Below are positions 1,017 through 53,798 of a stretch of 64,000 bases of DNA, one piece after another (positions within the stretch are counted from its first letter, which is position 1; the number at the start of each line of letters is the position of its first letter). Origin of the DNA: Thiomicrorhabdus lithotrophica (lineage in GTDB: Bacteria; Pseudomonadota; Gammaproteobacteria; Thiomicrospirales; Thiomicrospiraceae); NCBI RefSeq assembly GCF_029201445.1, contig NZ_CP102381.1:310001-374000 (forward strand), read 5' to 3'. The notes beneath the pieces are model-generated. The model worked only from the letters and a program-made list of their open reading frames with translations, searched no databases and had not been told where the DNA came from. The position numbers and the translations under genes were made by a program.

Positions 1017-2132
1017 ATGTCAAATTTTGCCGATTTACCCACAATCTTACGCCTACATAATTGCCATGTAACTTTTAAACAGTTAGAGGCCATTCAGCAG
1101 CACTTTGGCAGCTTAAATGTTGCGCTTGATTCTAATGAATCGGATTGGAAGCATGCCGAACTTTTAAAAGAAAATCAGTTGGCAATGTTATTTTCTGACG
1201 ACTCAAAACAAAGATTAGAGCAGGCTTTAGATTGGGGACAACAAACTAACCAGGCCTGGTTAATGTTGGGCGAAATGGTATATCCTAAACAGCTTACTGA
1301 AATCAGTGATCCACCTATTTTGCTGGGTGTACGTGGTAATGCGGGGTTATTGAACGACCCGCAAATTGCGATTGTGGGCAGTCGACATGCATCCAAACAA
1401 GGTGCTGAAACGGCAAAGGATTTTGCTCATTATCTTTCACAGCAAGGTTTAGGTATTACGAGTGGGCTAGCATTGGGCATTGATACTGCAGCACATCAAG
1501 GCGCTTTGTTAGGTATAGGCAAAACCGTAGCGGTGGTGGCAACAGGGCTCGATCGGATTTATCCAGCCTCTAACCAAAAACTTGGGCACCAAATAGTAGA
1601 AGAGGGGGTGATGATTTCTGAATTCCCTCTAGGTACAAAACCTCTAAATTTCAATTTTCCAAGACGTAACCGTATCATTAGTGGTTTAAGTGTCGGTACT
1701 TTGGTAGTTGAAGCGGCTTTAAAAAGCGGATCCTTAATCACTGCCAGAACAGCTTTAGAACAAGGTCGAGAAGTGTTTGCGGTACCCGGTTCTATTCATA
1801 ATCCTCAAGCAAAAGGTTGTCATCAGTTAATCAAGCAAGGTGCAAAGCTGGTTGAATCAGGTCAAGATGTTTTAGAAGAGCTAGCGAGCAATTTACAGTA
1901 CGCTTTAGATCTCGATAGCCACGAGCCCCAAGCGGCTAAAACTGCATCGACTAATCACGAAAGAAACACAAGCCGTTTGTTAGAGTGGATTGGTTATGAT
2001 GCCATTAGCCTGGATGAACTTGTGGTGTTGAGTAAAATGCCGGTATCAGGGCTGCAAGGTGAGTTAATGATGTTGGAGCTGTCAGGTGAAATTGAGGCTT
2101 TGTCTGCAGCGCGTTGGCGTAGAATTAAATAA
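1017..2132 (+). CDS. dprA: DNA-processing protein DprA (Smf)
   Basis: Loads RecA onto incoming single-stranded DNA during natural transformation. The 371 aa protein has a short N-terminal domain, the Rossmann-like DprA core (GSRHASKQG, SGLALGIDTAAHQG, FPRRNRIISGLS, GSLITARTALEQGREVFAVPG) and a C-terminal winged-helix-like tail (about 310-371). Its 3' end converges on the RsbW-like gene with only 18 bases between. The coding sequence carries copy P1 of the dispersed palindrome at 1247-1262, read as N-Q-A-W-L in the poorly conserved N-terminal part. Confidence 0.95.
   Translation: MSNFADLPTILRLHNCHVTFKQLEAIQQHFGSLNVALDSNESDWKHAELLKENQLAMLFSDDSKQRLEQALDWGQQTNQAWLMLGEMVYPKQLTEISDPPILLGVRGNAGLLNDPQIAIVGSRHASKQGAETAKDFAHYLSQQGLGITSGLALGIDTAAHQGALLGIGKTVAVVATGLDRIYPASNQKLGHQIVEEGVMISEFPLGTKPLNFNFPRRNRIISGLSVGTLVVEAALKSGSLITARTALEQGREVFAVPGSIHNPQAKGCHQLIKQGAKLVESGQDVLEELASNLQYALDLDSHEPQAAKTASTNHERNTSRLLEWIGYDAISLDELVVLSKMPVSGLQGELMMLELSGEIEALSAARWRRIK
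1247..1262. repeat. Dispersed palindrome P1 (TAACCAGGCCTGGTTA)
   Basis: Perfect 16-bp palindrome inside dprA, translated in frame as aac-cag-gcc-tgg-tta (N-Q-A-W-L). It is one of 15 copies of the CCAGGCCTGG core in this window. Confidence 0.9.
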
Positions 2133-2150
2133 AATTTATTCGGCAGTAGC

Positions 2151-3077
2151 CTAAGTGTTAACGCGGCAGATAACGGTTGAACCAGAATCGCGATACTCTA
2201 AATAATCAAAACTTAAACGATTGGCAATCATAATGCCTCTTCCATGACTGTCTGTTGCACGATTCTCTTCAAAATCTAAAAAGTTTGTGTAATTAAATCC
2301 CGCGCCATTATCTGAAATAGTAAATTCAAAAAAATCAGTTTTTCGTTCGAGTGTGACGGTAACAAATTTGTCACTGTTTTCTTCTAGAGATAGTCGGCGT
2401 GTAACTTCGGTTTGAAGTTTTGAATTTGTAATTAATTGTGACTTTAATTTATAGCCAATGCCCAAATTTCCATGCTCAATTGAATTTAATATCAATTCAA
2501 ATAAACCAATGGCTATGCGTTTTTGATCTGGGGTCATATAGGCTAAAACAGAGGCGATAGCCTGAGCTTCGGAAACGGTCTGAATATGAAAAACCGCTTT
2601 TTGTAACCGAGGGTGAGCTATCTCAAAATTGGCTAAACGTTTACTAATCTCTTGATGATTACTAAGGCCGAGTGTTGCCGTAAGTATAACGGTGTTTAAT
2701 AGTTCGGCTTTGAAAGGATAAATTAAATAAAAATACATTCCTAGATCAAACCCTTTTTGAATAGCATCAGACTGTGGATTATTCACTTGTAAAATAAATG
2801 GGGTTAATCCAAAGCATGAGTATTCTCTAAAAGATTTAAGTTCAGTTAAGTCATGTTGGTTCAGAGCGCTTTCATCAATTATCAATGCGTCATACTGAAT
2901 GACTGGAGAGTTTTTAACTTGTAAAACAGCTTGTGTAACGGTTGAACAAAACGTCAGAAAATAAATTCCTTTATCCAAGGAAGCTTGAATATGGTTTTGC
3001 CTTTCCATATTACAGCCTACAATTAAGAGGTGTTTTTTAGAAGAAGGGCTGGTTAATGTGTTTTTAAGGGCTGACAT
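2151..3077 (-). CDS. Receiver-like plus HATPase (RsbW/SpoIIAB-like) regulatory protein
   Basis: 308 aa. Residues about 16-135 look like a CheY-type receiver (LLIVG near the start, then ALIIDESAL at the expected phospho-Asp strand, and a Y-PF near the end). Residues about 165-308 are a GHKL ATPase of the anti-sigma/serine-kinase type: N-box around FELILNSIEHGN, then SDNGAGF and GRGIMIANRLSF. No HisKA dimerisation helix is evident, so this is not an ordinary histidine kinase. By analogy with RsbW-like partner-switching proteins it may bind or phosphorylate an anti-sigma antagonist, but no STAS-domain or PP2C partner gene lies nearby. Function is inferred from domains only. Confidence 0.7.
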   Translation of the reverse strand: MSALKNTLTSPSSKKHLLIVGCNMERQNHIQASLDKGIYFLTFCSTVTQAVLQVKNSPVIQYDALIIDESALNQHDLTELKSFREYSCFGLTPFILQVNNPQSDAIQKGFDLGMYFYLIYPFKAELLNTVILTATLGLSNHQEISKRLANFEIAHPRLQKAVFHIQTVSEAQAIASVLAYMTPDQKRIAIGLFELILNSIEHGNLGIGYKLKSQLITNSKLQTEVTRRLSLEENSDKFVTVTLERKTDFFEFTISDNGAGFNYTNFLDFEENRATDSHGRGIMIANRLSFDYLEYRDSGSTVICRVNT

Positions 3078-3459
3078 CCATGTTCCCAGTTTGCTGGTAA
3101 GCGGTGAATTCTAGTGGTTTACTAAAATTAATATGAATAAAAAATATTATAACGAATAAACCATTAATAGAATATGGCTGATTTAGTATAAAAACGTATT
3201 GAGTATGATATTACTTTAATTTTAACCGTACTTTACCTGTATTTATGGGAAATAACTTAAGTATGTGAATAAATACCTATAAATAGCTTAAATGTAGACA
3301 AAAATAAAATTAGTGTTTGCAAAAGCTTAAAAAATTATGCATCTTAAAAAAAGAAGAAAATTTTGGTTTGATCTAAAGTTCCTATTTTAAATAGAGATTG
3401 AATCAAACGCGATATTAAAAAAATCTAACGCACATGCAACTTAAATTAGAGTTAACTAT
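3078..3459. other. 382-bp AT-rich intergenic region upstream of topA
   Basis: Divergent promoter region between the RsbW-like gene and topA, strongly AT-rich. The only structure I can point to is a 7-bp inverted pair, GTTTGAT at 3366-3372 and ATCAAAC at 3412-3418, about 40 nt upstream of the topA start, possibly a leader stem. I see no gene, RNA gene or known repeat. Confidence 0.5.
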
Positions 3460-5994: not shown

Positions 5995-6054
5995 ACCGTA
6001 TTATTCGTTTTGCTATAAGGTTAAATTTACGAGTAATCATGCCTAGAATAATTT

Positions 6055-6066
6055 ACCAGGCCTGGT
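6055..6066. repeat. Dispersed palindrome P2 (ACCAGGCCTGGT)
   Basis: 12-bp perfect palindrome, flanked as TTACCAGGCCTGGTTA, in the 252-bp gap between topA and argS. It lies 93 bp centre to centre from copy P3 in the same gap. Confidence 0.9.
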
Positions 6067-6145
6067 TACTTGTTTATTCGAAATAAAGTTCTGTTTTTAA
6101 CATTCGTTAAAGATTTTAAAGCTACAAATTTTAAGTATTTCTAAT

Positions 6146-6161
6146 CTACCAGGCCTGGTAG
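6146..6161. repeat. Dispersed palindrome P3 (CTACCAGGCCTGGTAG)
   Basis: 16-bp perfect palindrome, the second copy in the topA-argS gap, about 85 bp upstream of the argS start. Confidence 0.9.
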
Positions 6162-6246
6162 TTTAAAATTAACCTCGTTACTCACCATTAATTTAGTAAA
6201 ATATCCTGTTTTATAAAATCCATAGTTCAAGTAAAGAGACCATCGC

Positions 6247-8691: not shown

Positions 8692-8712
8692 TCTACGTTA
8701 GTGGTTTAAAAT

Positions 8713-8741
8713 AAAAAAGGGCGTCTATACGCCCTTTTTTT
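8713..8741. terminator. Bidirectional rho-independent terminator
   Basis: A-run, then stem GGGCGT / ACGCCC with loop CTAT (8719-8734), then T-run. It serves both the argS-SPOR operon and the convergent diguanylate cyclase gene. Confidence 0.9.
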
Positions 8742-8759
8742 ATTGAAACTGTTTTTCGA

Positions 8760-9812: not shown

Positions 9813-9999
9813 AGGTAAGATTCCTTATATTTTGGCTCTCATTCTTTAGAATTCTACCATGAAAACTGCGTAATTATAGTGGTTTAATCTATCACTTTGA
9901 GGTGTTTTGAATATCAAATTAAAATCCATGAATCTATAGAGAAATTTAAAATAAAGGGTTATAGTTTGGCTTTGTTTAAATGCTTTTGAGGTCTCTAAA

Positions 10000-10251: not shown

Positions 10252-10263
10252 CACGGTAATCAA

Positions 10264-11796
10264 ATGTCTTTAGCCTCTTTAAGCACACGTGCCGTTTTAG
10301 GTATGCAATCGCCTCAAGTAACAGTTGAGGTACATGCCAGTAATGGTTTACCTTCCTTCTCCATAGTGGGCCTACCCGAAGCTTCTGTAAAAGAGAGTAA
10401 AGAACGTGTTCGTAGTGCGTTGATTAGCTCTGGATTTAAATTACCTCCTAAACGAATTACTGTAAATCTAGCACCTGCCGATTTGCCGAAGACCGGTGGA
10501 CGTTATGATTTACCTATTGCTTTAGGCATTTTAATTGCCACAGAGCAACTTCAGGTGACGGGCATAGAGAGCTATGAATTTTTTGGTGAACTTGCTTTAA
10601 CGGGTGAGCTACGAGGTATTAAAGGTGTTATTCCAAGCTTGCTAGCAACACATGAACAACACAGAAAAATTATTCTTCCTTTAGAGAATTTAGAAGAAGC
10701 AAGTCTCGTTTTACAAACTTATCCAGAGCTAAAAGGTTTACTGTTTGCGGTTTCTAACCTAAGAGATGCTTGTCGGGTTTTATTAGGTGAAATGCAAGCT
10801 GTTAGTCCTACAAAATCAGAGAACATTTTATCCAATCACTACCTAGAAGATTTATCTGATGTGCAAGGGCAGTTTCAAGCTAAAAGAGCTTTAGAAATAT
10901 CAGCTAGTGGACACCATTCTATGATGATGGTAGGCCCTCCGGGAGCAGGAAAAAGTATGCTTGCTTCTCGGCTGGTAACGATTCTTCCTGATTTAAGTTC
11001 TGAGGAAGCGGTTGAGGTTGCAAGTATTCGTTCCTTAGCTGGTCAGAGTATTACGTCGAGTGACTTTTATCAAAGACCTTTTATCCATCCGCATCATACA
11101 GCATCTTCTGCTGCGATGGTGGGTGGTGGAACAACGCCGAAACCTGGAGCACTTTCTTTAGCACATCACGGAATACTTTTTTTAGATGAACTCCCCGAGT
11201 TTAATCGCGCCGTGTTAGAAGCTTTGCGAGAACCCTTAGAGACCAAATCGGTCAATATCTCAAGGGTCAATCAACATGTTACTTATCCTGCAAACAGTCT
11301 GTTAATCACTGCGATGAATCCCTCGCCTAGTGGTTATTTTCCAGATGATTTAATGGGGCGTTGTAAAGATACACCAGATCAAATACTAAGGTATCAAAAG
11401 AAGATATCAGGCCCATTGTTAGACCGTATTGATTTACATATAGAAGTGCCAGCGGTTGATATTACTGATTTACAAGTCAATAAAGCGAACACTTCAGAGA
11501 AAAGCGAAGATGTTAGGAAGAGAGTATTAAATACAAGAACTATACAGCTGCAAAGGCAGGGCTGTTTTAACTCTGAGTTAAAGGTAAGTGAGCTACAGGA
11601 TTTAATCGAGTTGGATGAGATAAGCCAAGCTTTAATTGAAAAAGCCGTGACTGATTTAGGTTTGTCGGCTCGAGGTTATCATCGTATATTGCGGGTAGCG
11701 AGAACGATAGCGGATATGGATAAGCTGCAAATGATACAGTCTCAACATATTGCAGAGGCTTTGAGCTATCGTTCTACCTCCAAGGTTTTTATGTAG
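10264..11796 (+). CDS. comM: ComM/YifB AAA+ branch-migration helicase
   Basis: 510 aa. N-terminal Lon-like ChlI domain (about 1-190), then a Mg-chelatase-type AAA+ module with Walker A GPPGAGKS at 224-231 and Walker B ILFLDELPEF, and a C-terminal lid (LSARGYHRILRVARTIAD). ComM extends recombination tracts during natural transformation in gammaproteobacteria. With dprA in the same window it supports competence. The stop codon abuts the start of the next gene. Confidence 0.93.
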   Translation: MSLASLSTRAVLGMQSPQVTVEVHASNGLPSFSIVGLPEASVKESKERVRSALISSGFKLPPKRITVNLAPADLPKTGGRYDLPIALGILIATEQLQVTGIESYEFFGELALTGELRGIKGVIPSLLATHEQHRKIILPLENLEEASLVLQTYPELKGLLFAVSNLRDACRVLLGEMQAVSPTKSENILSNHYLEDLSDVQGQFQAKRALEISASGHHSMMMVGPPGAGKSMLASRLVTILPDLSSEEAVEVASIRSLAGQSITSSDFYQRPFIHPHHTASSAAMVGGGTTPKPGALSLAHHGILFLDELPEFNRAVLEALREPLETKSVNISRVNQHVTYPANSLLITAMNPSPSGYFPDDLMGRCKDTPDQILRYQKKISGPLLDRIDLHIEVPAVDITDLQVNKANTSEKSEDVRKRVLNTRTIQLQRQGCFNSELKVSELQDLIELDEISQALIEKAVTDLGLSARGYHRILRVARTIADMDKLQMIQSQHIAEALSYRSTSKVFM

Positions 11797-12483
11797 ATGG
11801 ACTCAATTTATATTACGGCTTTCATTGTCGGTGTTTTGGGTGGTGTGCACTGCTTAGGAATGTGTGGAGGCGTGGTTGGTGGCCTTACTTTTAGTTTAGA
11901 GAGCCGTGTGCAAACGAGTTGGTGGAAAATGATGCCTTTCCAACTATCTTATAATGTAGGGCGATTAAGTAGTTATGTGATTATTGGCGCGATTTTTGGT
12001 GCTTTTGGCGCAACATTAGGCTCGCTTGCCGCTTTTCTTCCAGCGCAACAACTTTTACAAACTATTGCTGGTCTATTTATGATTGCTTTAGGATTATACT
12101 TAGGTGGTTGGTGGTTTGGAGTGGCTAAGATTGAGCGGCTTGGTCAAGGGTTGTGGAATAAAATCGCACCTTTAACGTCAAAGTTAACGCCAGTTAAACA
12201 TTATCACCAGGCCTGGTTATATGGTTTAGTTTGGGGCTGGTTGCCTTGCGGTTTAATTTATAGCATGTTGATAATGGCAATGTCTTCAGGAAGTGCTTTA
12301 AACGGTGCAGGCGTGATGCTAGCCTTTGGTTTAGGAACTTTGCCTAATTTAATGTTAATGGGTGTGTTCGCGTTTTACTTTACGCGTTTATCGAGAATGG
12401 TCTGGGTAAAACGTTTTGCAGGGTTGAGTGTGATTTTAATGGGTGTTTGGCAGTTATATTTAGCCTACAGTGTAACCATATAG
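11797..12483 (+). CDS. Sulfite exporter TauE/SafE-like membrane protein
   Basis: 228 aa, about six hydrophobic helices, with HCLGMCGG at residues 18-25 in the first helix and GWLPCGLIYS in the second half, as in the TauE/SafE-like proteins often found near cbb3 oxidase maturation genes. Substrate unknown; copper or sulfur export are both possible. It starts directly on the comM stop. Copy P4 of the dispersed palindrome is embedded at 12206, read H-Q-A-W-L just before the second conserved motif. Confidence 0.8.
   Translation: MDSIYITAFIVGVLGGVHCLGMCGGVVGGLTFSLESRVQTSWWKMMPFQLSYNVGRLSSYVIIGAIFGAFGATLGSLAAFLPAQQLLQTIAGLFMIALGLYLGGWWFGVAKIERLGQGLWNKIAPLTSKLTPVKHYHQAWLYGLVWGWLPCGLIYSMLIMAMSSGSALNGAGVMLAFGLGTLPNLMLMGVFAFYFTRLSRMVWVKRFAGLSVILMGVWQLYLAYSVTI
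12206..12217. repeat. Dispersed palindrome P4 (ACCAGGCCTGGT)
   Basis: 12-bp perfect palindrome inside the TauE/SafE-like gene, in frame as cac-cag-gcc-tgg-tta (H-Q-A-W-L), the same reading frame as P1 and P10. Confidence 0.9.
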
Positions 12484-16080: not shown

Positions 16081-16083
16081 AGT

Positions 16084-18626: not shown

Positions 18627-20570
18627 TTACTCATGAAGCGCGCTTGGTGCTCCGTAAAAATAGCCTTGAGAGTATTTAACACCTAATTCATTAAAGGCTT
18701 TTAATTGCTCTTCATTTTCAACTGCCATGGCAATGACATCAATATCTAAGCTATCCGCCAATTCACATAGGCTAGAAACATAGCTACGAGTTTGTTCATC
18801 GTTTTCGATGGCTTTACTAAATGCAGCATCAAGTTTGATATAGTCAGGACGCAAATCTTGCAGATACCGCACATTGCCCAGTCGTGTACCAAAGTGGTCA
18901 ATACCGATATTAATGCCGAACTTGCGTAAGTCAGCAATTAGCGGCCAAGCTTGTGCTTTTTGATCAGTAATTAAGTTTTCAGGGAGTTCAAAAGCAATCC
19001 GATGGGTTAGTTTTGCATTGCTGGCTAGAGTATGTAATAACGTACGCTGAAAGGTTTCGTCTTCCAGAACTGATTTTGAAAGGTTAATCGCCAGAATCAC
19101 TGAATCCAGGTGGGTTTTTAGATGCTGAATGACTAGATTGATTACCAGTTGGTCAATCTCTGAAGTTTTACGTAATTTTTCAACAGCGGGCATAAAATAG
19201 CCAGCTGAACGAATGGTGCCATCCGTGTCTTTAAGGCGAATGAATAACTCTTGATCATGAACTCTACGGTCAAGATTGTAAGCACTCTGCTGGAATAGAA
19301 TAAAACGTTTCTCATCAATAGCTTGAGTAAGAGTTTGTTCCCAAGATTCTGTTGGGCTTTGTTGATCTTGTTGAGTATTGTAGTAGTAGACGGTGTTCTG
19401 TCCTTGTTTTTCAGCTTGCTCAATAGCGAAATCTAAATTTCCAAGTAGTGGGCCGCGACTTTCTCCAGGTTGGTAGTCAGTATAAGCTAAAGAGATAGAA
19501 GTGGCGGCTTCAGCAGCGTCTAATGAAGTTAATATGGCTGGCATGGCTTGCGTTATTTGTTGGGTAGGTTTATCTATTTGCTGACCTACCAGGCCTGGTA
19601 AAACAGCGATTAATTCAGTGCCGTTTAAGCGTGCAAAAACACCTTTTTCATGATTTAAGTTAAGCTTCATTTCATCTGCAAGGGACTTCATTAGCTTGTC
19701 ACCCACTAAGTACCCAAATTGATCATTAAGCTCTTTGAGTTCTTTTACACGGATAAGGCAAATGATTCCAGCTGGAACATCCTCATTAGGATCAAGCAAG
19801 CTATCAACAATCATTTCAAAATGACGACGGTTGCTTAATTCAGTCACGCTGTCTTGATAAGCCATTTTTTGTAATTTTTCAGCGGTATTCGCATCTCTTT
19901 CAAACACGGTTTTGAGTTTGTTCACCATCGCATTCATGGCGCTGACCACTTGTCTAAACTCAATGGTTGAAGGCAGTTGATCTTGAATTAGGTATTCTTT
20001 TTTAACAATTGCTTCTGCCTGTTTTTCCATGTCTTTTAGAGGTTTAAGCATTAAGTTAAGTGTATAAATTACGATTAAAATAGCCGCTAATGCCGCAATG
20101 CCAAACCAGGCTAATAATGTTAAAGCGGTTTTCCAAAGCTCTGCATAAGCGTGGCCTGTGTGGCTGATTACGCTAAGCGAGCCGACAGGAATCCAGCCTG
20201 TTTGAACTAAGGCTTGAGCTTCGGGTGCCTCTAGTTGTATGGTGTTAATAAACCAATCTGGAACAGAGTCCATGGATTTACTGTTTGTTCTTTGATAGAG
20301 CGTAATTTGTTCCATATCGATTAAGCTAATGCTAGCGTAGTAACCACGATCAAAAACCGCATTAATCATAGTTTCCATGCTAGAAATGTCTTCTGGGTTT
20401 TCTATACTACTTAGAGATAAACCGAGTGAAGTGGCTGTGTCTTGAGCATGAGATTCTAATTGTGCTTGTAAGAAGTTCTTAGTGTTGTTCAAGTTTAAGG
20501 TAAAAGTCCCCAATAGCAGAATGAACACCATCGAAGCAATAAAGAGAATCATTTGTTTATTTAAACTCAT
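18627..20570 (-). CDS. lapD: LapD-type c-di-GMP receptor with degenerate GGDEF and EAL domains
   Basis: 647 aa inner-membrane protein: TM helix about 7-27, periplasmic sensor domain about 28-150, second TM about 150-172, HAMP about 172-225, GGDEF about 237-385 and EAL about 405-647. Both catalytic motifs are degenerate: RLNGTEL where RxGGDEF is expected, and FILFQQSAYNL / QELF in the EAL region, with DHFGT in place of DDFGT. This is the pattern of LapD, which binds c-di-GMP inside the cell and sequesters the periplasmic protease LapG. lapG lies just upstream, which strongly supports the call. Copy P5 of the palindrome is inside the GGDEF coding region. Confidence 0.93.
   Translation of the reverse strand: MSLNKQMILFIASMVFILLLGTFTLNLNNTKNFLQAQLESHAQDTATSLGLSLSSIENPEDISSMETMINAVFDRGYYASISLIDMEQITLYQRTNSKSMDSVPDWFINTIQLEAPEAQALVQTGWIPVGSLSVISHTGHAYAELWKTALTLLAWFGIAALAAILIVIYTLNLMLKPLKDMEKQAEAIVKKEYLIQDQLPSTIEFRQVVSAMNAMVNKLKTVFERDANTAEKLQKMAYQDSVTELSNRRHFEMIVDSLLDPNEDVPAGIICLIRVKELKELNDQFGYLVGDKLMKSLADEMKLNLNHEKGVFARLNGTELIAVLPGLVGQQIDKPTQQITQAMPAILTSLDAAEAATSISLAYTDYQPGESRGPLLGNLDFAIEQAEKQGQNTVYYYNTQQDQQSPTESWEQTLTQAIDEKRFILFQQSAYNLDRRVHDQELFIRLKDTDGTIRSAGYFMPAVEKLRKTSEIDQLVINLVIQHLKTHLDSVILAINLSKSVLEDETFQRTLLHTLASNAKLTHRIAFELPENLITDQKAQAWPLIADLRKFGINIGIDHFGTRLGNVRYLQDLRPDYIKLDAAFSKAIENDEQTRSYVSSLCELADSLDIDVIAMAVENEEQLKAFNELGVKYSQGYFYGAPSALHE
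19587..19600. repeat. Dispersed palindrome P5 (TACCAGGCCTGGTA)
   Basis: 14-bp perfect palindrome inside lapD. In the gene's frame it reads tta-cca-ggc-ctg-gta (L-P-G-L-V), the same frame as P6. Confidence 0.9.
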
Positions 20571-22496: not shown

Positions 22497-23683
22497 ATAG
22501 CTTGTAACAATGCCTCGATAAGTTGAGAATCCTCTAAAATAACAGAGTTACCTAACATGCTTCCACTTCTGCAATTGGCAATAACAGGTGATATGTTTTC
22601 GGCGGTTAATCCGTATTGTCCTAAGCCTAAAGGGGTATATTTTTCGGCATAATCGTTTAATAGAGTTACCAGGCCTGGTAATAATGACTTGTCAGCTTGG
22701 TTTGGATTAAGCATCTGGCTGACTTGCTGATATTTTATTAAGGTAGTGTTTGCATGGGCACTTTTTTCTTGTTGCAAGCTATGAATGTTGGCTTGTGTGA
22801 TTGGTGCAAGTAGGCGTGCGCAAACAATGCCGTGTGGTGCATCAAAAAATGCGCCAATTGGACCCGCTAAACCATGAACCGCTCCAAGTCCAGAATTGGC
22901 TAAGGTAGTACCAGATAGTGATGCTGCTAGCATTAAATTACTATAACCGGCTTTTTGATGTTCTGTATTAGGGCTATTAATGTCTTCAAAAGCGCCTTTA
23001 AAAAGAGTCATTCCCTGCCAGGCTAGCGCATCCGTAATTGGGTTTGGATTTAACGTTGTGTAGGATTCTAGTAATTGAGTAAACGCATCCATACCTGTTG
23101 AATACAAAACCTCTTTTGGACAGCTAACCAGTAATTCAGGGTCTAACCAGGCTTCTTTAGCCAAAAGTTTGTTGTCACGAAACGACTTCTTGAATTGACC
23201 AATGCGAGATAAAACGGCATTTTTAGTGGTTTCACTTCCTGTTCCAGCGGTAGTTGGGATGGCTATAAAAGGGCAGGTTTCCACGTGAAACTTTTTGCCA
23301 GCCCCAACACCCTCTAAATAGTCCATAACCGAAGTTTGGCTTGGAATTAAACCTGCAATCGCTTTAGCTGCATCTAAGACACTTCCTCCCCCTAAACCAA
23401 TCACTATGTTGGTGTCTGTGTCACATTGGATAACGATTTCATCGACCACTTCTGGAGAAGGTTCACCTGAGACAACAAAATGTTTAATCTGTGATGTTGA
23501 TTTGATGGTTTGATAAAGCTCGTCAGCAAACTCGCCTGGATTAGCGAGCGTTTTGCCGGATACTAAAACGATTTTATTGTGATTAAGGTTTTGTAGGTTT
23601 TGAATGAGTTGGTGACGAATCCCCCAACCAAAATGAATGTGTGGCATTGGAGCAAATTCAAAAGGCTTGATTGGGTTTGTCAT
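22493..23683 (-). CDS. Iron-containing alcohol dehydrogenase
   Basis: 396 aa group III (iron) ADH, NAD(P)-dependent. The nucleotide-binding GLGGGSVLDAAKAIAG and TTAGTGSE motifs are present, followed by the metal-binding signature around HGLAGPIGAFFDAPHG. Substrate cannot be told from sequence. It starts 29 bases after the rep stop and is probably cotranscribed with rep. Copy P6 of the palindrome lies near the 3' end of the gene, read L-P-G-L-V-T. Confidence 0.9.
   Translation of the reverse strand: MTNPIKPFEFAPMPHIHFGWGIRHQLIQNLQNLNHNKIVLVSGKTLANPGEFADELYQTIKSTSQIKHFVVSGEPSPEVVDEIVIQCDTDTNIVIGLGGGSVLDAAKAIAGLIPSQTSVMDYLEGVGAGKKFHVETCPFIAIPTTAGTGSETTKNAVLSRIGQFKKSFRDNKLLAKEAWLDPELLVSCPKEVLYSTGMDAFTQLLESYTTLNPNPITDALAWQGMTLFKGAFEDINSPNTEHQKAGYSNLMLAASLSGTTLANSGLGAVHGLAGPIGAFFDAPHGIVCARLLAPITQANIHSLQQEKSAHANTTLIKYQQVSQMLNPNQADKSLLPGLVTLLNDYAEKYTPLGLGQYGLTAENISPVIANCRSGSMLGNSVILEDSQLIEALLQAI
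22666..22681. repeat. Dispersed palindrome P6 (TTACCAGGCCTGGTAA)
   Basis: 16-bp perfect palindrome equal to the family consensus, inside the iron alcohol dehydrogenase gene. In frame: tta-cca-ggc-ctg-gta (L-P-G-L-V). Confidence 0.92.
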
Positions 23684-23712: not shown

Positions 23713-25746
23713 CTAGTCTTTTTTAAGAAACGATTTCAAGTTGGCGATATGGGCGTTACCTGTTTCCAGCTGTTCTTCTTTAGAAACTACCACACCTGGT
23801 TTTCCTTCCCATTGCAGAGACTCTGACGGTAGTTCTTCTAAAAATCGACTTGGCTCACAGCGCATGTCTTCACCATATTTTCTACGCTTGGTGGCGTAAG
23901 TCATGGTTAAAGAGCGTTGTGCTCGGGTAATACCTACATAGGCTAAACGACGTTCTTCTTCCAGGCCTGGTGACTCTAGATTTTGTTTGTGTGGCAGTAA
24001 TTCTTCTTCCATACCAATTAAAAAGACATGTGGAAACTCTAAACCTTTAGAGGCGTGCAAAGTCATTAGGCTGACCATGTCATGATCGTTTTCGGATTCA
24101 TTACGTTCCATCATATCCATTAATGCCATATGGGTCACAATGGTTTCTAAGCGTTTTTCTTCGCCATCTTGTTCCAGTGCTTTTTTAACAATACGTTCAA
24201 TCCATAAAATCAGATCGCGTACATTGTTAATGCGGCGCTCAGCGGTTTTTGGGTTGCTTGAGTTTTCATGAATCCAGTTATCGTATTCGATTTTTTCAAC
24301 CAATTGACGTACAAAAGAGGGAACTTCTTCGCCTTGTGCACTGTCTGCTTCTTGCATCCAGCTGAGTAATTGGTCGCCAAAATGCTGAACACGTTTTAGC
24401 GCTTTATCAGACAAAATAGTGGTTAAACCAAACTCTTGTGTCGCCTCAAATAAGCTGATGTCACGGCCTGTTGCATAGGTCGCTAATTTTTCTAAAGTGG
24501 ATGCACCGATTTCTCGTCTTGGAGTGTTCACAATTCGTAAGAAAGCGGCATCATCATCTGGGTTAACAATAATGCGCAAGTAACTCATGATATCTTTGAT
24601 TTCGGCATGGTCAAAAAAGGATTTACCACCTGAAATAACATATTGAATATTTTGTTCACGCAGGGCGCGTTCCATTAAACGAGCTTGGTGATTACCACGA
24701 TATAAAATAGCGTAATCGCGGTTTTTGGTTTTGTATTTAAACTTATGCACAATAATTTCTGAAACCACACGTTCAACTTCTTGGTTTTCATTGGCGCAGG
24801 CAATGACTCTTAAAGGATCACCTGCACCCATATCACTCCATAGCGTTTTTTCAAATACGTGTGGATTATTGGCGATAAGTTGGTTAGCTGATTTAAGAAT
24901 TCGGTTGGTTGAGCGATAGTTTTGCTCAAGTTTAATCAGTTCTAATGCGGGAAAGTCTTCTTTAAGCATGGCCAAGTTTTCAGGCTGTGCACCACGCCAA
25001 GCGTAAATAGATTGGTCATCATCTCCAACCACGGTAAAGCGTGCCTGTACGCCTACTAATTGTTTCACTAAGGCGTATTGCGCCGCATTGGTGTCTTGAT
25101 ATTCATCTACCAATAAATAACGCACTTTATTTTGCCACTTTTGCAAAATCTCAGGGTTTTTGGTAAAGAGTTTTACAGGAAGGCCAATCAGGTCATCAAA
25201 GTCGACCGCATTGTAAGCTTTTAATTGTTTTTGGTAGGCCTGGTAGAGAATAGCCCGTGCTTTATCTTGCGCATCTTCTGCTTTATTAATGGCGTCTTCT
25301 GGGCTGATGTGCGCATTTTTCCAGTTTGAAATATCCCACTGCACACCATCTAACACTTCAGGATCTAATGTCTGTTTGTGCATCAGCTCTTTTAGAATTT
25401 GCCCACTATCTGCGGCATCCATAATCGAAAAGTTAGACTTATAACCCAGAGCTTTATATTCGCGGCGAATGATATTTAAGCCCAGGTTATGAAAGGTAGA
25501 AACGTTTAAACCAGTCGTGTTCTCATTTTTGAGCAGTTTGGTAACGCGCTCTTTCATCTCTTTAGCGGATTTATTGGTAAAGGTTACCGCGTAAATATTA
25601 TGAGATTTAACGTCGCATTTACGAATTAAATAGGCAATCTTTTCGGTAATTACACGTGTTTTACCCGAGCCAGCACCAGCTAATACCAGGGCGGGGGTGT
25701 CTATGTGTTTTACGGCTTTTTGCTGTCTATCGTTTAAACTGTGCAT
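23713..25746 (-). CDS. rep: ATP-dependent DNA helicase Rep
   Basis: 677 aa SF1A 3'-5' helicase that helps replication forks pass protein roadblocks. Walker A AGAGSGKT at 23-30, Walker B LVDEYQDTN, motif III VGDDDQSIYAWRGA, and the C-terminal motifs VSLMTLHASKGLEFPHVFLIG and RRLAYVGITRAQ. Length and the DDDQ form fit Rep better than UvrD (usually about 720 aa). Divergent from the methyltransferase gene. Copy P7 of the palindrome lies between the last two motifs, read S-P-G-L-E. Confidence 0.93.
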   Translation of the reverse strand: MHSLNDRQQKAVKHIDTPALVLAGAGSGKTRVITEKIAYLIRKCDVKSHNIYAVTFTNKSAKEMKERVTKLLKNENTTGLNVSTFHNLGLNIIRREYKALGYKSNFSIMDAADSGQILKELMHKQTLDPEVLDGVQWDISNWKNAHISPEDAINKAEDAQDKARAILYQAYQKQLKAYNAVDFDDLIGLPVKLFTKNPEILQKWQNKVRYLLVDEYQDTNAAQYALVKQLVGVQARFTVVGDDDQSIYAWRGAQPENLAMLKEDFPALELIKLEQNYRSTNRILKSANQLIANNPHVFEKTLWSDMGAGDPLRVIACANENQEVERVVSEIIVHKFKYKTKNRDYAILYRGNHQARLMERALREQNIQYVISGGKSFFDHAEIKDIMSYLRIIVNPDDDAAFLRIVNTPRREIGASTLEKLATYATGRDISLFEATQEFGLTTILSDKALKRVQHFGDQLLSWMQEADSAQGEEVPSFVRQLVEKIEYDNWIHENSSNPKTAERRINNVRDLILWIERIVKKALEQDGEEKRLETIVTHMALMDMMERNESENDHDMVSLMTLHASKGLEFPHVFLIGMEEELLPHKQNLESPGLEEERRLAYVGITRAQRSLTMTYATKRRKYGEDMRCEPSRFLEELPSESLQWEGKPGVVVSKEEQLETGNAHIANLKSFLKKD
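23961..23970. repeat. Dispersed palindrome P7 (CCAGGCCTGG core)
   Basis: 10-bp core inside rep, one arm extended (CCAGGCCTGGTGA). In frame: tca-cca-ggc-ctg-gaa (S-P-G-L-E). Confidence 0.8.
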
Positions 25747-26464: not shown

Positions 26465-26484
26465 AGTTACCAGGCCTGGTAACT
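26465..26484. repeat. Dispersed palindrome P8, the longest copy (20 bp)
   Basis: AGTTACCAGGCCTGGTAACT, perfect over 20 bp, between the methyltransferase stop and the Tim44-like gene, 36 bp upstream of the latter's start. Confidence 0.93.
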
Positions 26485-28090: not shown

Positions 28091-28102
28091 ACCAGGCCTG
28101 GT
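28091..28102. repeat. Dispersed palindrome P9 (ACCAGGCCTGGT)
   Basis: 12-bp perfect palindrome downstream of the lipoprotein gene. Its right half forms the left arm of the adjacent terminator hairpin. Confidence 0.9.
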
Positions 28103-28148: not shown

Positions 28149-29348
28149 ATGTCAGACACGCAAACTACTATCTCTAATAGATCTAAGGCTGATTTTTCGC
28201 AACTTGCTTATGTGTTAGGTAAACCGGTTCTGCAAGGGGTGTTGAAAAGTGAGCCAGAAGATTTTAGAGTTGAAGAGCAAATTGCTTATGCGTTAAGCGG
28301 CGAGGGCGAACATCTTTGGTGTTGGGTTGAAAAGCGTGGTGAAAATACCGACTGGGTTGCTGGCATGTTAGCTAAGTGGGCAGGCACGTCAAAACGTAAT
28401 GTCGGTTTTGCGGGTCAAAAAGACCGCCAAGCGGTGACTAAGCAATGGTTTAGCATTCAGCTTCCAGGTAAAGAAGATCCTAATCCTGATATGCTCCATG
28501 TTGACGGGGTGAAAATCCTTTGCATGCAGCGACATAACCGAAAGTTACAGCGCGGCGGATTATCAGGCAACCGATTTGAGTTAGTTATACGCGATATTAG
28601 CAAGGCGAATAGTTGCGTGCATGATATGAGCCGTGAGGCTGTTATCTCAGAAATCAATAACCGTTTACACTCGATAGCAGAGCAGGGTGTTCCAAACTAT
28701 TTTGGTGAACAGCGTTTTGGTAAAGGCGGCAATAATTTAAGCGAAGGCGAAAAGTTACTCACTGCGGATAACCGAGATAATCAATCGAATAGAAGACGTG
28801 GAAACCGCAATAAATCGGGTAATCGTAATCAGCAAAGTTTATATATTTCCGCTTTACGTTCTTGGATGTTTAATGACTTATTAAACCAACGTATTCAGAA
28901 CGATACTTGGAACCAAGTCATAGCCGGTGATGTTGTGCAATTAGCAGGCTCAGATAAATGGTTTGTTGCAGATGACAATGAAGACTTAAGTGATTTACAG
29001 CAAAGAGCATTAAACGGTGATTTAAATCCAACAGGTGGTTTATTTGGTGATGGTGCTTTACCTACTTTAACTGCAGCGTTGCAGCTCGAAACAACGATTG
29101 TTGAAAAGTACCAGGCCTGGTGTGATGCTTTGGCTAAGAACCGTGTTAAGCAAGATAGACGTTCTTTACGACTCATGCCGGAAAATTTAACTTGGTCTAT
29201 TGAAGAATCTCAAGAAGAAGAGCTTGCTATAAACTTCAAGCTCGCTTTTACTTTACCAGCAGGGAGTTTTGCAACGATGGTTCTGCGAGAAGTTTTGCAT
29301 ACAGTAGAAAAAGGGTATTCTGCACCTTTAACGAAAGTCTTAAATTGA
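28149..29348 (+). CDS. truD: tRNA pseudouridine synthase D
   Basis: Makes pseudouridine 13 in tRNA-Glu. 399 aa from the ATG at 28149. The frame is open further upstream to 28101, but that stretch overlaps a terminator and encodes an unlikely hydrophobic leader. Catalytic Asp92 is in FAGQKDR; NYFGEQRFGKGGNN is the second family signature. It is longer than E. coli TruD (349 aa), partly from a basic insert around residues 208-228. Copy P10 of the palindrome is inside, read Y-Q-A-W-C. Confidence 0.95.
   Translation: MSDTQTTISNRSKADFSQLAYVLGKPVLQGVLKSEPEDFRVEEQIAYALSGEGEHLWCWVEKRGENTDWVAGMLAKWAGTSKRNVGFAGQKDRQAVTKQWFSIQLPGKEDPNPDMLHVDGVKILCMQRHNRKLQRGGLSGNRFELVIRDISKANSCVHDMSREAVISEINNRLHSIAEQGVPNYFGEQRFGKGGNNLSEGEKLLTADNRDNQSNRRRGNRNKSGNRNQQSLYISALRSWMFNDLLNQRIQNDTWNQVIAGDVVQLAGSDKWFVADDNEDLSDLQQRALNGDLNPTGGLFGDGALPTLTAALQLETTIVEKYQAWCDALAKNRVKQDRRSLRLMPENLTWSIEESQEEELAINFKLAFTLPAGSFATMVLREVLHTVEKGYSAPLTKVLN
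29110..29121. repeat. Dispersed palindrome P10 (ACCAGGCCTGGT)
   Basis: 12-bp perfect palindrome inside truD, in frame tac-cag-gcc-tgg-tgt (Y-Q-A-W-C). Confidence 0.9.
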
Positions 29349-33345: not shown

Positions 33346-33390
33346 TTACCAGGGCAAACATGTTTAACCAGGCCTGGTAACTTTTATTTT
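33346..33390 (+). terminator. Possible hairpin terminator incorporating palindrome P11
   Basis: TTACCAGG (33346-33353) can pair with CCTGGTAA (33373-33380), which is the right half of palindrome P11, followed by CTTTTATTTT. The loop is long (19 nt), and P11 can also fold on itself, so the call is tentative. Confidence 0.45.
33367..33378. repeat. Dispersed palindrome P11 (ACCAGGCCTGGT)
   Basis: 12-bp perfect palindrome between the convergent mobA and hisI genes, flanked as TAACCAGGCCTGGTAA. Confidence 0.9.
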
Positions 33391-34945: not shown

Positions 34946-35257
34946 GGTAAAGGGGCTTTATGTTAAAAAATAATGTGAAGTATTGTAACGTTTATAAGCA
35001 CAGATAACTATGAAATCAACGGTTTAAATCTTGGTTTGATGTGCTTACAAGCTTGTTATGAGATAGAGATAATAGGTTGTGATTCTTTTTACCAGTTAAT
35101 TATGGCTAAAACATGAATGCATTGATGCTTAGTATGTTTCCAGGCGAATTATGAAATGAATGGCTCAAGTTTTAAAGGAAGAGGGATAAAGGAGTTGATA
35201 GTTATATTTAAACAAGCCTAGTCATAATAACCAGGCCTGGTAAGGTTAAAAGTCGCT
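34946..35257. other. 312-bp intergenic region holding palindrome P12
   Basis: Between the exonuclease start and the glycerate kinase stop, both on the minus strand, so it should include the exonuclease promoter. Besides palindrome P12 near the kinase end I see no gene or structure. Confidence 0.5.
35230..35241. repeat. Dispersed palindrome P12 (ACCAGGCCTGGT)
   Basis: 12-bp perfect palindrome 17 bases after the 3' end of the glycerate kinase gene, flanked as TAACCAGGCCTGGTAA. Confidence 0.9.
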
Positions 35258-42959: not shown

Positions 42960-42990
42960 TTTGGCTTGAGTAGCGAAGCCAAAAGCAAAT

Positions 42991-43018: not shown

Positions 43019-43077
43019 GGTTTTAGGCTAAGATGTTTTAAATACGATATAAAAAATAATAAACAGGTTGTATATAG

Positions 43078-44325: not shown

Positions 44326-44366
44326 TGCATCGTATTGTAGGGTGGATGGGGTTAAACTTTACACCT

Positions 44367-44380
44367 TACCAGGCCTGGTA
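44367..44380. repeat. Dispersed palindrome P13 (TACCAGGCCTGGTA)
   Basis: 14-bp perfect palindrome in the cca to RND-adaptor gap, flanked as TTACCAGGCCTGGTAG, about 95 bp upstream of the adaptor start. Confidence 0.9.
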
Positions 44381-44474
44381 GCTTTTGTTAATAGGTTTTA
44401 ATAACCTTTTGATTCTCATAGGTCTATATAAATAACACGTTTAACGCAGCAAACTTCAAAAAGAGCTTATAAAA

Positions 44475-48886: not shown

Positions 48887-48912
48887 TTGTAATGATAGCT
48901 TCATTGTTCTTT

Positions 48913-48937
48913 AACCCAGGTTTATCCTGGGTTTTTT
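48913..48937 (+). terminator. Terminator after the RND operon
   Basis: AACCCAGG (48913-48920), TTTAT loop, CCTGGGTT (48926-48933), then T-run. Canonical. Confidence 0.9.
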
Positions 48938-49139
48938 ATATTGTCTGACTGGAAATACCAGTAGAGTTTTTATTGTCTTTAGATAGGTGTAGGAGTTTTT
49001 ATGCATTCTATTCATTAAATCTTCATGATTTATATCATTTTTGCATCATAAAAAAACAATGAATGGATAAGAAAACTTGATGATTTTGTCATTTTAAGAG
49101 AGAATAATCGTCCAAATTTATATTGTGGTTCTATTTTTG

Positions 49140-49191
49140 ATTCCTAAACCAGTTAAAAAACTGTTCAGATAACAGTCTGATTGTTAGGAAT
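49140..49191 (+). promoter_or_regulatory. Nested inverted repeats in the tkt leader
   Basis: Outer arms ATTCCTAA (49140-49147) and TTAGGAAT (49184-49191) enclose two mutually exclusive inner hairpins: CAGTT / AACTG (49150-49163) and ACTGTT / AACAGT (49160-49176). It lies 46 bases before the tkt start. It could be an operator or a switching leader RNA; no known riboswitch is recognised. Confidence 0.4.
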
Positions 49192-49237
49192 AATTTCACC
49201 GCAAGTACCGAATTTTTAAATATGTTGAGGAAGTTGT

Positions 49238-51226
49238 ATGGCAACTCGTAGAGATCTAGCAAACGCAATCCGTGCTTTAAGTATGGATGCTGTTCAAAAA
49301 GCAAATTCTGGTCACCCAGGTGCACCGATGGGTATGGCGGATATCGCTGAAGTATTGTGGAACAGCCACATGAAATTCAACCCAACTAACTCTAAGTGGG
49401 TTGATCGCGATCGTTTCGTTCTTTCGAACGGACACGGTTCTATGCTTATGTATTCTCTATTGCACCTTTCAGGTTACGACTTAAGCATGGAAGATATCAA
49501 GCAGTTCCGTCAGTTACACTCTAAGACAGCGGGTCACCCTGAATATGGTTATGCTGAAGGTATTGAGACAACAACAGGTCCTCTAGGACAAGGTTTGACA
49601 AACGCAGTGGGTATGGCAATTGCAGAACGTACTCTTGCAGCCCAGTTCAACAAGCCAGGTCACGATATCGTTGACCACAATACTTATGTATTCATGGGTG
49701 ATGGTTGTTTGATGGAAGGTCTTTCTCACGAAGCAGCAGCAATGGCTGGGACTTTAGGTCTTGGTAAGTTGATTGCATTCTGGGATGACAACGATATCTC
49801 TATCGACGGTAACATCGGTGATTGGATGGAAAAAGGCGTTCCTGGACGTTTTGTTTCTTATGACTGGCACGTAATTCCTAACGTTGATGGTCATGATGCT
49901 GATGCTATTAATGCAGCCATCGAAGAAGCTAAGAAAGTAACAGACAAGCCTACGCTTATCTGTACTAAGACAGTAATTGGTTTTGGTTCGCCAAACAAAT
50001 GTGGTACTTACTCATGTCACGGAGCACCTTTAGGTGATGAAGAGATTGATTTAGTTCGTAAAGAGCTTGGTTGGACTGCTGCTCCGTTTGAAATTCCAGA
50101 AGATATCTATGCTGGTTGGGATCATAAAGCACAGGGTGCTAAAGATGAAGCGGCTTGGAATGACAAGTTTGCAGCTTATAAAGCGGCATATCCAGCTGAA
50201 GCAGCTGAATATGAGCGTCGTATGGCGGGTGATCTTCCAGCTAACTTCGAAGTGGATTTTGATGCGTTCATCGCTAAGACTCAAGAAGAGTCTCCAAAAC
50301 TAGCTTCACGTCAAGCGTCACAAAAAGCAATTGAACAGTTAGGTAGTATGCTTCCAGAAATGTTCGGTGGTTCTGCTGACTTAACAGGTTCTAACTTAAC
50401 TAACTGGTCTAAGATGGTTAAGGTTAATAAGGAAAATGCTGACGGTAACTACCTATCTTGGGGTGTACGTGAATTCGGTATGGCTCACATGATGAACGGT
50501 ATGGTTCTTCACGGTGGTTTCAAAGTATTCGGTGGAACATTCTTCATGTTTATGGAATTCATGCGTAACGCTTTACGTATGTCTGCATTAATGAAGATTG
50601 GTACTATCTATGTTTACACTCATGACTCTATCGGTCTAGGTGAAGATGGTCCTACTCACCAGCCTGTTGAACAGTTAGCCACAATGCGTGTTATTCCTAA
50701 CTTCCAAACTTGGCGTGGTTGTGATGCGGTTGAGTCTGCTGTTTCTTGGAAGATGGCTGTTATGCGTGATAAAGCGCCTACTGCACTAGTGTTCTCTCGT
50801 CAAGCTCTAACGCCTATGGCGCGTACTGCTGAGCAAGTTAAGAATATCGAAAAAGGTGGTTATGTACTTAAAGATTGTACTGGTACTCCAGACATTATCT
50901 TTATCGCTACTGGTTCTGAGGTGGGTCTAGCGGTTGAAGCGGCTGAAGCAATGGATGCAAACGTACGTGTTGTTTCTATGCCTTGTACAGATGCTTATGA
51001 CGAGCAAGATCAAGCATATAAAGATTCTGTACTTATCCCTGGTGTTAAGCGTGTTGCTATCGAAGCTGGTGTTGCTGATGGTTGGTATAAGTATGTTGGT
51101 CTTGAAGGTGGAACAGTTTGCATGTCTACTTTCGGTGAATCTGCACCTGCAAACGAACTGTTTGAAATGTTCGGTTTCACAGTAGAAAACGTTGTAGCAA
51201 CAGCTAACAAGGTTTTAGGTAAGTAA
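49238..51226 (+). CDS. tkt: Transketolase
   Basis: 662 aa thiamine-diphosphate enzyme moving two-carbon units among Calvin-cycle and pentose-phosphate sugars. Motifs: [14 protein letters not shown], the TPP motif GDGCLMEG, and the pyrimidine-binding region [15 protein letters not shown]. Codons are strongly biased (ggt, aac, gtt), as in gap, pgk and cbb genes here, suggesting high expression. First of a run of carbon-metabolism genes. Confidence 0.97.
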
Positions 51227-51288
51227 TGTAATGGCCGTCTTAATTGTTTGCGGTAAATATTAAAATTTTTTATAAAGTCAGGCCTGAT

Positions 51289-51304
51289 TTACCAGGCCTG
51301 GTAA
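51289..51304. repeat. Dispersed palindrome P14 (TTACCAGGCCTGGTAA)
   Basis: 16-bp perfect palindrome, family consensus, in the tkt-gap intergenic region 18 bases before the gap start. A related 10-bp palindrome, TCAGGCCTGA, lies directly beside it at 51278-51287. Confidence 0.92.
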
Positions 51305-51316
51305 TAATTGGAGTAA

Positions 51317-52321
<1,005 letters not shown>

Positions 52322-52322
52322 T

Positions 52323-52431
52323 AATTGATTCATCTCATTAGCGGCTGATTTCTTCGTTGGTTGTCGGTCGTGTGCACTTGCACACTCCCTTCGCCCGCCT
52401 TGAGCTCAACTCGCTACTGAGCGAATCAATT
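52323..52431. repeat. About 110-bp structured element between gap and pgk (MITE-like or RNA)
   Basis: Terminal inverted repeats AATTGATTC (52323-52331) and GAATCAATT (52423-52431) continue as the imperfect stem CTCATTAGCG / CGCTACTGAG. Inside is a strong hairpin, GTGTGC-ACTT-GCACAC (52370-52385). The interior is clearly more GC-rich than its surroundings. It could be a small non-autonomous element, a structured RNA or part of the gap transcript end. Confidence 0.6.
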
Positions 52432-52586
52432 TATTATTTTGTTTTAGTTTGGAGGGAGTAAAATCCTTCCAAATTAAATTTTCTTGTTTGTATTCGGTTA
52501 TGAGTATAAAAAAGTAAGTTTAATTATTTAATCCAATGATCATTTCGTTTAGAAATGGTTTCCAACTTGAAGAAAGAGGACTCAAC

Positions 52587-53768
52587 ATGTCTGTAATTAA
52601 GATGTCTGATCTAGATTTAGCTGGTAAGCGCGTACTTATTCGTGAAGACCTAAACGTTCCAGTTAAAGATGGTAAAGTTACTTCTGATGCGCGTATCCGT
52701 GCTTCATTACCTACAATTAAAATGGCTGCAGAAGCAGGTGCAAAGGTAATGTTAATGTCTCACCTTGGTCGTCCTACTGAAGGTGAATATGCTGAAGAGT
52801 TCTCTCTAGCTCCAGTTGCTGCTGATTTATCTGCAAAGTTAGGTAAAGAAGTACGTCTTGTTAAAGACTATTTGGATGGTGGTTTTGATGTTGCTAATGG
52901 TGAAGTTGTTCTTTTAGAAAACGTTCGTTTTAACGTTGGTGAAAAGAAAAACACTGAAGAGCTTTCTAAAAAGTATGCTGCTCTATGTGATGTATATGTA
53001 ATGGATGCGTTTGGTACGGCTCACCGTGCACAAGCTTCTACACATGGTGCTGGTGCTTTTGCTGATACAGCATGTGCTGGTCCGTTATTGGCAGCTGAGT
53101 TGGATGCTTTAGGTAAGGCTTTAAATAATCCAGCGCGCCCAATGGTTGCTATCGTTGGTGGTTCTAAGGTCTCAACTAAGTTAACTGTTCTAGAATCACT
53201 TTCTGAGAAAGTTGATCAGTTAGTTGTTGGTGGTGGTATCGCGAATACATTTATTGAAGCAGCTGGTTACAACGTTGGTAAGTCACTTTCTGAATCTGAC
53301 TTAGTGCCTACTTGTAATAAGCTTAATGAAATCATGAATGCACGTGGGGCTGGAATTCCTCTAGCATCTGATGTTGTGTGTGGTAAAGAGTTCTCTGAAA
53401 CTGCTGTTGCAACTACTATGAATGTTTCTGAAGTTTCTGATGACGATATGATTTTTGATATCGGTCCTGATTCTGCAGCTGAGCTTGCTGAAATCATCAA
53501 GAATGCTGGAACAGTTGTTTGGAATGGCCCAGTAGGTGTATTTGAGTTTGATCAATTCGGTGAAGGTACTAAAGCAATCTCTATGGCGATTGCAGAATCT
53601 TCAGCATTCTCTATCGCAGGTGGTGGTGATACTTTAGCGGCTATCGATAAGTATGATATTGCTGATAAAGTTTCTTATATCTCTACTGGTGGTGGTGCAT
53701 TCTTAGAATTCCTAGAAGGTAAAGAGTTGCCTGCAGTAACTATGCTTGAAGCTGCTGCTGCAAAATAA
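52587..53768 (+). CDS. pgk: Phosphoglycerate kinase
   Basis: 393 aa from the ATG at 52587, which has AAGAGGA six bases upstream; the frame is open further back but without a better start. Motifs: [35 protein letters not shown] and the nucleotide-binding GGGDTLAAI. Interconverts 3-phosphoglycerate and 1,3-bisphosphoglycerate in the Calvin cycle, next to gap. Confidence 0.97.
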
Positions 53769-53788
53769 TTCGGTTTACGAATAAGTTG

Positions 53789-53798
53789 CCAGGCCTGG
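53789..53798. repeat. Dispersed palindrome P15 (CCAGGCCTGG core)
   Basis: 10-bp core, flanked as TTGCCAGGCCTGGTTG, 20 bases after the pgk stop. Last copy before the carboxysome operon. Confidence 0.85.

Follow-up and report, generated by a model that had tools for sequence, protein, structure and literature searches.

The 64-kb window analyzed here (G000:C1:310001-374000, a stretch of the single closed contig of 2,516,205 bp that makes up the source genome, G000) raises the question of why one palindromic word, CCAGGCCTGG, recurs along its whole length. We found that this word belongs to a real watermark, spread over the whole genome and specific to one family of sulfur-oxidizing bacteria, in which it occurs in several dialects. 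The source organism is probably a Thiomicrorhabdus-like sulfur oxidizer, given that the named records closest to an RND transporter protein were a Thiomicrospira sp. MAG (85%) and Thiomicrorhabdus species (77 to 78%). Comparison with the DNA uptake sequences (DUS) of Neisseriaceae and the uptake signal sequences (USS) of Pasteurellaceae suggests that CCAGGCCTGG, extended as AAnTTACCAGGCCTGGTAAnTT, is the local dialect of a family's uptake-signal-type watermark, which would act as a tag of self DNA; we give this reading a probability of roughly 0.6.

The palindrome in the window and across the source genome

The original prediction listed 15 copies of CCAGGCCTGG in the window, and every coordinate was exact. 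A mean of 0.01 copies was expected, and none of 100 dinucleotide shuffles reached 15. As claimed, 13 of the 15 copies extend to the 12-mer ACCAGGCCTGGT, and the division into nine intergenic and six genic copies agrees with the open reading frame (ORF) list. The 16-mer under which the repeat had been described, TTACCAGGCCTGGTAA, is present in that exact form at only 3 of the 15 copies and stands as a consensus; the extended symmetry does reach 20 bp, with perfect symmetry spanning 10 to 20 bp over the copies. Two of the proposed checks, a genome-wide count and a Markov comparison, were carried out, and neither refuted the observation. The whole genome holds 531 copies of CCAGGCCTGG (reversed control, 0) and 454 of ACCAGGCCTGGT, and a 464-kb sample, composed of the window and 20 stretches, holds 95 copies of CCAGGCCTGG against 0.33 expected under an order-3 model. 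Because of the genome-wide count, the copies are not confined to the window segment, and a local repeat or island is ruled out; the shuffles, the reversed control, and the Markov expectation rule out a chance origin. Such strong over-representation of one short word is expected of DUS and USS.

Next, the anatomy of the sites was examined. The flanks give the consensus AAnTTACCAGGCCTGGTAAnTT, with a weak A/T preference about 10 to 11 bp away from the dyad; farther out, no clear preference is seen. The 464-kb sample contains 56 singly mismatched copies versus the 95 perfect ones; 45 of the 56 mismatches fall at the outermost base, and inner positions carry 0 to 3 each. Samples of two other genomes gave 12 singly mismatched per 46 perfect (G018) and 11 per 44 (G023). 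The scarcity of near-miss copies in all three genomes is likewise expected of DUS and USS.

Placement was assessed in the same sample, with coding and intergenic positions assigned from a simple ORF call. Fifty of the 95 sites are coding and 45 intergenic; coding sequence makes up 89% of the total and intergenic sequence about 11%. Coding sites are unevenly divided by frame (26, 20, and 4). The 44 intergenic sites with both neighbors available lie in tandem (31), convergent (11), and divergent (2) spacers, whose lengths come to 28158, 7110, and 11751 bp, respectively. Divergent spacers are therefore depleted of sites (P 0.0004), since they constitute 25% of the spacer length, and convergent spacers show a suggestive enrichment (P 0.06). 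Operators of a global transcription regulator would account for a palindrome of this size and for the site that 10 of 21 genomes conserve roughly 24 bp before gap (see below), but the near absence of sites from divergent spacers and the location of 50 of the 95 within genes make them very improbable. Transcription terminators or attenuators seem a little less probable still. A stop codon lies at most 60 bp upstream of the intergenic site in 27 of 53 measured distances, and some sites form stems with T-runs (the copy at 28092 in the window, and a pair in one other dialect); however, a scan of window positions 20 to 60 kb scored only 2 of 10 sites, leaving most of the scanned copies without a hairpin and T-run, and the abundance of copies inside genes speaks against termination as well.

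Distribution, dialects, and persistence of sites

Among 58 genomes searched, CCAGGCCTGG was abundant solely inside the family; the top count outside it was 35 (control, 10). A class-wide survey of 369 genomes gave the same picture for ACCAGGCCTGGT, with 660 copies in G401, 181 in G035, and none in G026 and G321 within the family, and 0 to 5 copies in each of 364 nonfamily genomes. Counts across 37 family genomes were made with a generalized word, ANCNGGCCNGNT. It had 325 to 877 matches in 18 genomes (reversed controls, 0 to 42), intermediate numbers in two (149 and 140), and near-background numbers in 17 (5 to 62; controls, 0 to 33). Most of these 17 exceed their reversed control (for example, 62 versus 24 in G026), and the surplus may represent relics. 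One of the 17, G023, nevertheless has a dialect of its own.

Five dialects were distinguished. D1 is ACCAGGCCTGGT, of the source genome; D2 is AGCAGGCCTGCT, from a sample of G008; D3 is AACAGGCCTGTT, from samples of G017, G025, and, in part, G005; and D4 is ACCGGCCGGT, present in G023 at 44 copies in 120 kb versus approximately 0.15 expected (the raw figures, 88 and 0.30, count a palindrome on both strands). D5 is the asymmetric word AACAGGCCGGGT, from G020 and the records L038 and L040, where aligned sites read aaaactcaaCAGGCCGGgt and only one side carries an A-tract, 10 to 13 bp from the center; a 60-kb sample of G020 contains 29 CAGGCCGG-type, 1 CAGGCCTG, and 2 CCGGCCGG sites, on both strands. 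D1 to D4 are palindromic and D5 is not, A/T preferences about 10 to 12 bp from the center occur on both sides in D1 and D4, and the core common to all dialects is GGCC. The two adjoining CCWGG sites noted in each window copy do not generalize: CCWGG is missing from the other dialects, which have only GGCC in common. Dialects with a shared core in relatives are a further property expected of DUS and USS.

To place the dialects, a tree was built from six proteins and rooted on Hydrogenovibrio; its rows for DE12 and ZodW390 miss more than one-third of the columns, and nine of the 17 near-background genomes, used only for the counts and gene searches (G001, G010, G011, G016, G022, G028, G029, G032, and G034), stand outside it. 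Eight members (G003, G013, G031, G026, G019, G024, G012, and ZodW390) formed one clade without an abundant motif. G023, with its ACCGGCCGGT dialect, was nested inside this motif-poor clade, and D5 was placed next to the D3 genomes. The simplest reading of the tree, in which some internal supports are low (0.47 to 0.66), is that the motif was lost and that a new dialect then arose in the G023 line.

A palindrome with alternates in relatives also resembles the highly iterated palindromes (HIP) of cyanobacteria, and a DNA methylase together with methyl-directed mismatch repair could have produced a word of this kind. PMC4390886 describes HIP1 and alternate HIPs as palindromic and very abundant, with other palindromes in relatives and one-base deviations at the outermost base, all as seen here, and the source genome itself carries two C5 methylases. 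According to the same text (Elhai 2015), a putative methylase that could modify the site is encoded in every HIP-rich genome of cyanobacteria. We searched for PF00145 in family genomes G000 to G022 and for PF01555 in 19 genomes. PF00145 was present in motif-rich G000, G007, G008, and G018, gave a sub-cut-off match only in G015, and was absent from motif-rich G004, G005, G009, G014, G017, G020, and G021. PF01555 was matched in G005, G030, G035, and G036 and was absent from motif-bearing G000, G014, G015, G018, G020, G021, G023, G025, G027, and G033. Thus, as far as tested, the cyanobacterial methylase rule does not hold, since motif-rich G014, G020, and G021 have neither family (other methylase families were not searched). 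Moreover, D5 is not a palindrome, a HIP-like origin predicts neither the intergenic bias nor the plasmid depletion described below, and densities of 211 sites per Mb in the source genome and 337 in G018 fall short of the approximately 500 to 2500 given for HIP-rich genomes in that text. A HIP-like origin is consequently improbable.

Individual sites were then compared across relatives. Ten of 21 genomes have a site in the tkt/gap spacer with its GGCC 23 to 25 bp before gap, written in the local dialect, as a hybrid, or in degenerate form (G021); none of 7 motif-poor genomes has one. Between the genes for phosphoglycerate kinase and pyruvate kinase, the spacer contains sites of several dialects and hybrids across relatives, so that two orthologous spacers retain a site although the dialect differs. 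The spacer of window copy 13 also holds a site in all five other genomes of its tree clade (G009, G014, G015, G021, and G030). At seven coding positions in compared genes, the sites arose by substitution, because the aligned relatives show no indel; the G023 site in an RND gene (aligned codons 332 to 336) encodes an alanine, a position occupied by Q, K, E, or V in the other 20 genomes.

These substitutions, and flanks that show no conservation farther than about 12 bp from the center, leave little room for the copies being remnants or targets of mobile elements, which we regard as scarcely credible. What such an origin has in its favor is a single example from G015, in which an insertion sequence, presumably IS4-like (domains DDE_Tnp_1 and DUF4372), lies inside a motif copy (L182, approximately 1679 to 2996) and is bordered at each end by a copy of the 10-mer CCAGGCCTGG, which would be explained if the palindrome had been its target site.

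A terminator-like arrangement, two inverted sites followed by a T-run, was also seen for D5. Terminator-like USS pairs are described in H. influenzae (PMC5217627). According to PMC1939737, however, inverted repeats make up only about 10% of uptake sequences, and that paper argues that termination is not what these sequences are for.

Uptake and chromosome organization as possible explanations

The distribution of sites on mobile DNA was examined in G018, whose second contig (96.8 kb) carries Rep3, ParA/ParB, TraI_2, and TrbI genes. The 60 of 97 kb read contain 4 sites, where the density of the chromosome would predict 20.9 (P 8e-6), a fivefold depletion on one plasmid with conjugation genes. 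Scarcity on mobile elements, which DUS and USS are expected to show, was thus seen on this plasmid and in one low-GC stretch of the source genome. The latter (L060, G000:C1:1620001-1640000; GC 0.35; 1 site in 20 kb) encodes a C5 methylase, an SNF2 helicase, and AAA genes and is likely a defense island.

The two longest site-free gaps within the first 518 kb of the source genome could not be explained as mobile DNA. The longer one (37 kb, G000:C1:404697-441336) is the rpoB-rpoC-fusA-L2-SecY ribosomal cluster, which weakens a simple mobile-DNA reading of the gaps; the other (27 kb) includes a repeat-rich stretch. This stretch (G000:C1, approximately 153.8 to 171.6 kb; L049 13799 to L050 11585) has 58 copies of a marker word at a spacing of about 312 bp and is apparently one giant repetitive gene.

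Dispersed palindromes are also bound inside cells: parS, Noc, SlmA, and matS sites are of this type, with tens of copies arranged in domains. A protein of chromosome or nucleoid organization (Noc, SlmA, or MatP-like), binding the dyad as a dimer at hundreds of places, would account for the symmetry, the two-sided A/T preferences of D1 and D4, the genome-wide occurrence, and the positional persistence of sites. The palindrome here is similar in size to those known sites; unlike them, it is present in hundreds of copies with random-like spread. Sixteen spaced 20-kb samples of the source genome gave a mean of 4.4 sites and a variance of 3.6, with no domain structure, and the spacing of its first 100 sites had a coefficient of variation of 1.10 versus 0.82 to 1.20 for random placement. 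An uneven distribution between origin and terminus was accordingly not seen in these spacings and samples (the origin was not mapped). The asymmetry of D5, the plasmid depletion, and repeated switches of specificity with loss in one genus also count against such a protein, which we consider unlikely, though less so than the alternatives above. A related and still doubtful idea, to which we give marginally more credence, is that the reader is not an uptake pilin but a DNA-binding system of two-fold symmetry, for which the motif marks hundreds of positions on the chromosome and whose specificity was switched, lost, and reinvented several times in one genus, with the sites of the whole genome following.

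Of the nucleoid, segregation, methylation, and uptake systems listed in the original prediction, uptake is favored because of the dialects, the asymmetric dialect, the plasmid depletion, the intergenic bias, and the coding sites made by substitution; methylation is unsupported, and segregation or nucleoid organization is not favored because of the random-like spread and the nonpalindromic dialect. Under uptake, a receptor in competent cells, probably a type IV pilin-like protein, would bind the motif on free DNA; motif-bearing DNA of the same kind would be taken up preferentially via ComEA and ComEC and recombined with DprA and ComM. Allelic replacement biased toward versions that carry the motif would let copies accumulate and stay near-perfect and would leave the motif scarce on newly arrived elements, and a change in receptor specificity would make the copies change together. 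We infer both the identity of the reader as an uptake receptor and this drive mechanism.

The motif matches uptake sequences in its abundance and sharpness, its dialects and intergenic bias, its depletion on a plasmid, its origin by substitution, and the accompanying competence genes. Like the DUS dialects of PMC3630211, it occurs as very abundant near-identical copies with several dialects per family, a short shared core (CTG in Neisseriaceae, GGCC here), one dialect that differs by an insertion (wadDUS; compare D1 and D4), and some genomes of the family with none; density is also lowered in genomic islands in the case of DUS (PMC7371117). Like Pasteurellaceae USS (PMC12616744 and PMC1939737), D5 combines a core with an AT-rich flank at helical spacing. 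Mismatched copies per perfect copy number 764 per 1471 (0.52) for H. influenzae USS and 56 per 95 (0.59) in the source genome, and the coding shares are 65% and 53%. USS have two AT-rich regions on one side, and D1 to D4 have one weak A/T region per side.

Several observations weigh against uptake, among them a core that is palindromic, a density that is lower, and a receptor that was not found. PMC1939737 describes uptake sequences as nonpalindromic; neither DUS nor USS is a palindrome, whereas four of the five dialects here are, D5 alone having the expected nonpalindromic form. Neisseria uptake sequences occur once per 400 to 1100 bp (PMC7371117), about 4 to 12 times denser than the motif in the source genome (1 per 4.7 kb). 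DUS have a known receptor, ComP, and the searches described below found no counterpart for the motif here. The 37-kb gap over rpoBC and ribosomal genes belongs on this side also.

The competence genes that DUS and USS lead one to expect are present, and likewise in most motif-poor genomes. ComEA was matched at E 0.001 in 32 of 37 family genomes, 20 above cut-off, and ComEC in all 28 of the 37 searched, 25 above cut-off (G004, G031, and G032 fell below). The ComEC match of motif-rich G004, a fragmented assembly, is weak, and ComEC in D5-rich G020 is in two pieces 37 kb apart (G020:C1:88072-89325 and 50689-51309), either a broken gene or an assembly error. Among 14 named control genomes, E. coli included, the ComEA model matched 9 and the ComEC model 12, so that presence of these genes is weak evidence by itself. 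Since they are common to motif-rich and most motif-poor genomes and do not track the motif, they permit uptake but do not explain the pattern. The ComP_DUS model gave no match above cut-off in the 37 family genomes, and GspH/FimT was found among them only in G010, G019, and G026, all motif-poor. Pilin-signature genes were present in all 8 genomes searched of the 37, rich and poor, in what we take from gene names to be a type II secretion-like pseudopilin cluster and another pilus cluster; because these clusters occur in both alike, no receptor candidate separates rich from poor. The pseudopilin cluster was seen in the seven other genomes searched and not in G003.

Two families, Neisseriaceae and Pasteurellaceae, are known for DNA uptake that is sequence-specific, and both are host-associated. 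If uptake is the explanation, the family would provide a third, independent case, in free-living sulfur oxidizers; dialects that are mostly palindromic with one asymmetric would show how uptake systems arise and switch, and that what is recognized may be one half-site plus an A-tract. If it is not, some new explanation would be required for a palindrome that covers the chromosome and switches specificity. The genus includes rich, switched, and empty relatives side by side, which makes gain, loss, and dialect change directly testable. No published description of such a motif was found among the matches listed (subscription literature lay mostly outside the scope). Among the listed papers containing CCAGGCCTGG, none concerned a bacterial genome motif by title, and the one match listed for palindromic or novel uptake sequences speaks of nonpalindromic DUS.

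Copies and neighboring genes in the window

The window copies and two transformation-related genes are collected below. The dprA gene is a possible component of the uptake pathway, and the YifB/ComM-family gene may have a role in transformation.

Coordinates of CCAGGCCTGG copies and transformation-related genes in the 64-kb window
Feature	Coordinates	Strand	Context or evidence
Copy 1	1250..1259		within dprA, coding for TNQAWL
Copy 2	6056..6065		spacer 3' of topA
Copy 3	6149..6158		same spacer as copy 2, 5' of argS-like ORF
Copy 4	12207..12216		within DsbD_2-family gene
Copy 5	19589..19598		within LapD-like GGDEF/EAL gene
Copy 6	22669..22678		within Fe-ADH gene
Copy 7	23961..23970		within UvrD/Rep helicase gene
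Copy 8	26470..26479		spacer; perfect 20-bp palindrome; terminator-like score on - strand
Copy 9	28092..28101		spacer; terminator-like stem with half-site and downstream T-run
Copy 10	29111..29120		within truD
Copy 11	33368..33377		spacer, convergent ORFs on either side
Copy 12	35231..35240		spacer, on the 3' side of the glycerate kinase gene
Copy 13	44369..44378		spacer
Copy 14	51292..51301		tkt/gap spacer; GGCC ends 24 bp before gap
Copy 15	53789..53798		spacer between phosphoglycerate kinase and pyruvate kinase genes
dprA (transformation recombination mediator)	1017..2132	+	PF02481 4.9e-77, PF17782; contains copy 1
YifB/ComM-family AAA ATPase	10264..11796	+	TIGR00368 1.1e-176

Copy 9 touches the listed GTG start of the next ORF. 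Other products encoded in the window are CsoS2, a carboxysome protein, and, at 16084 to 18276, an LssB-type type I secretion ATPase; the LapD-like gene (18627 to 20570) adjoins the latter, an arrangement suggestive of an export system for a giant adhesin.

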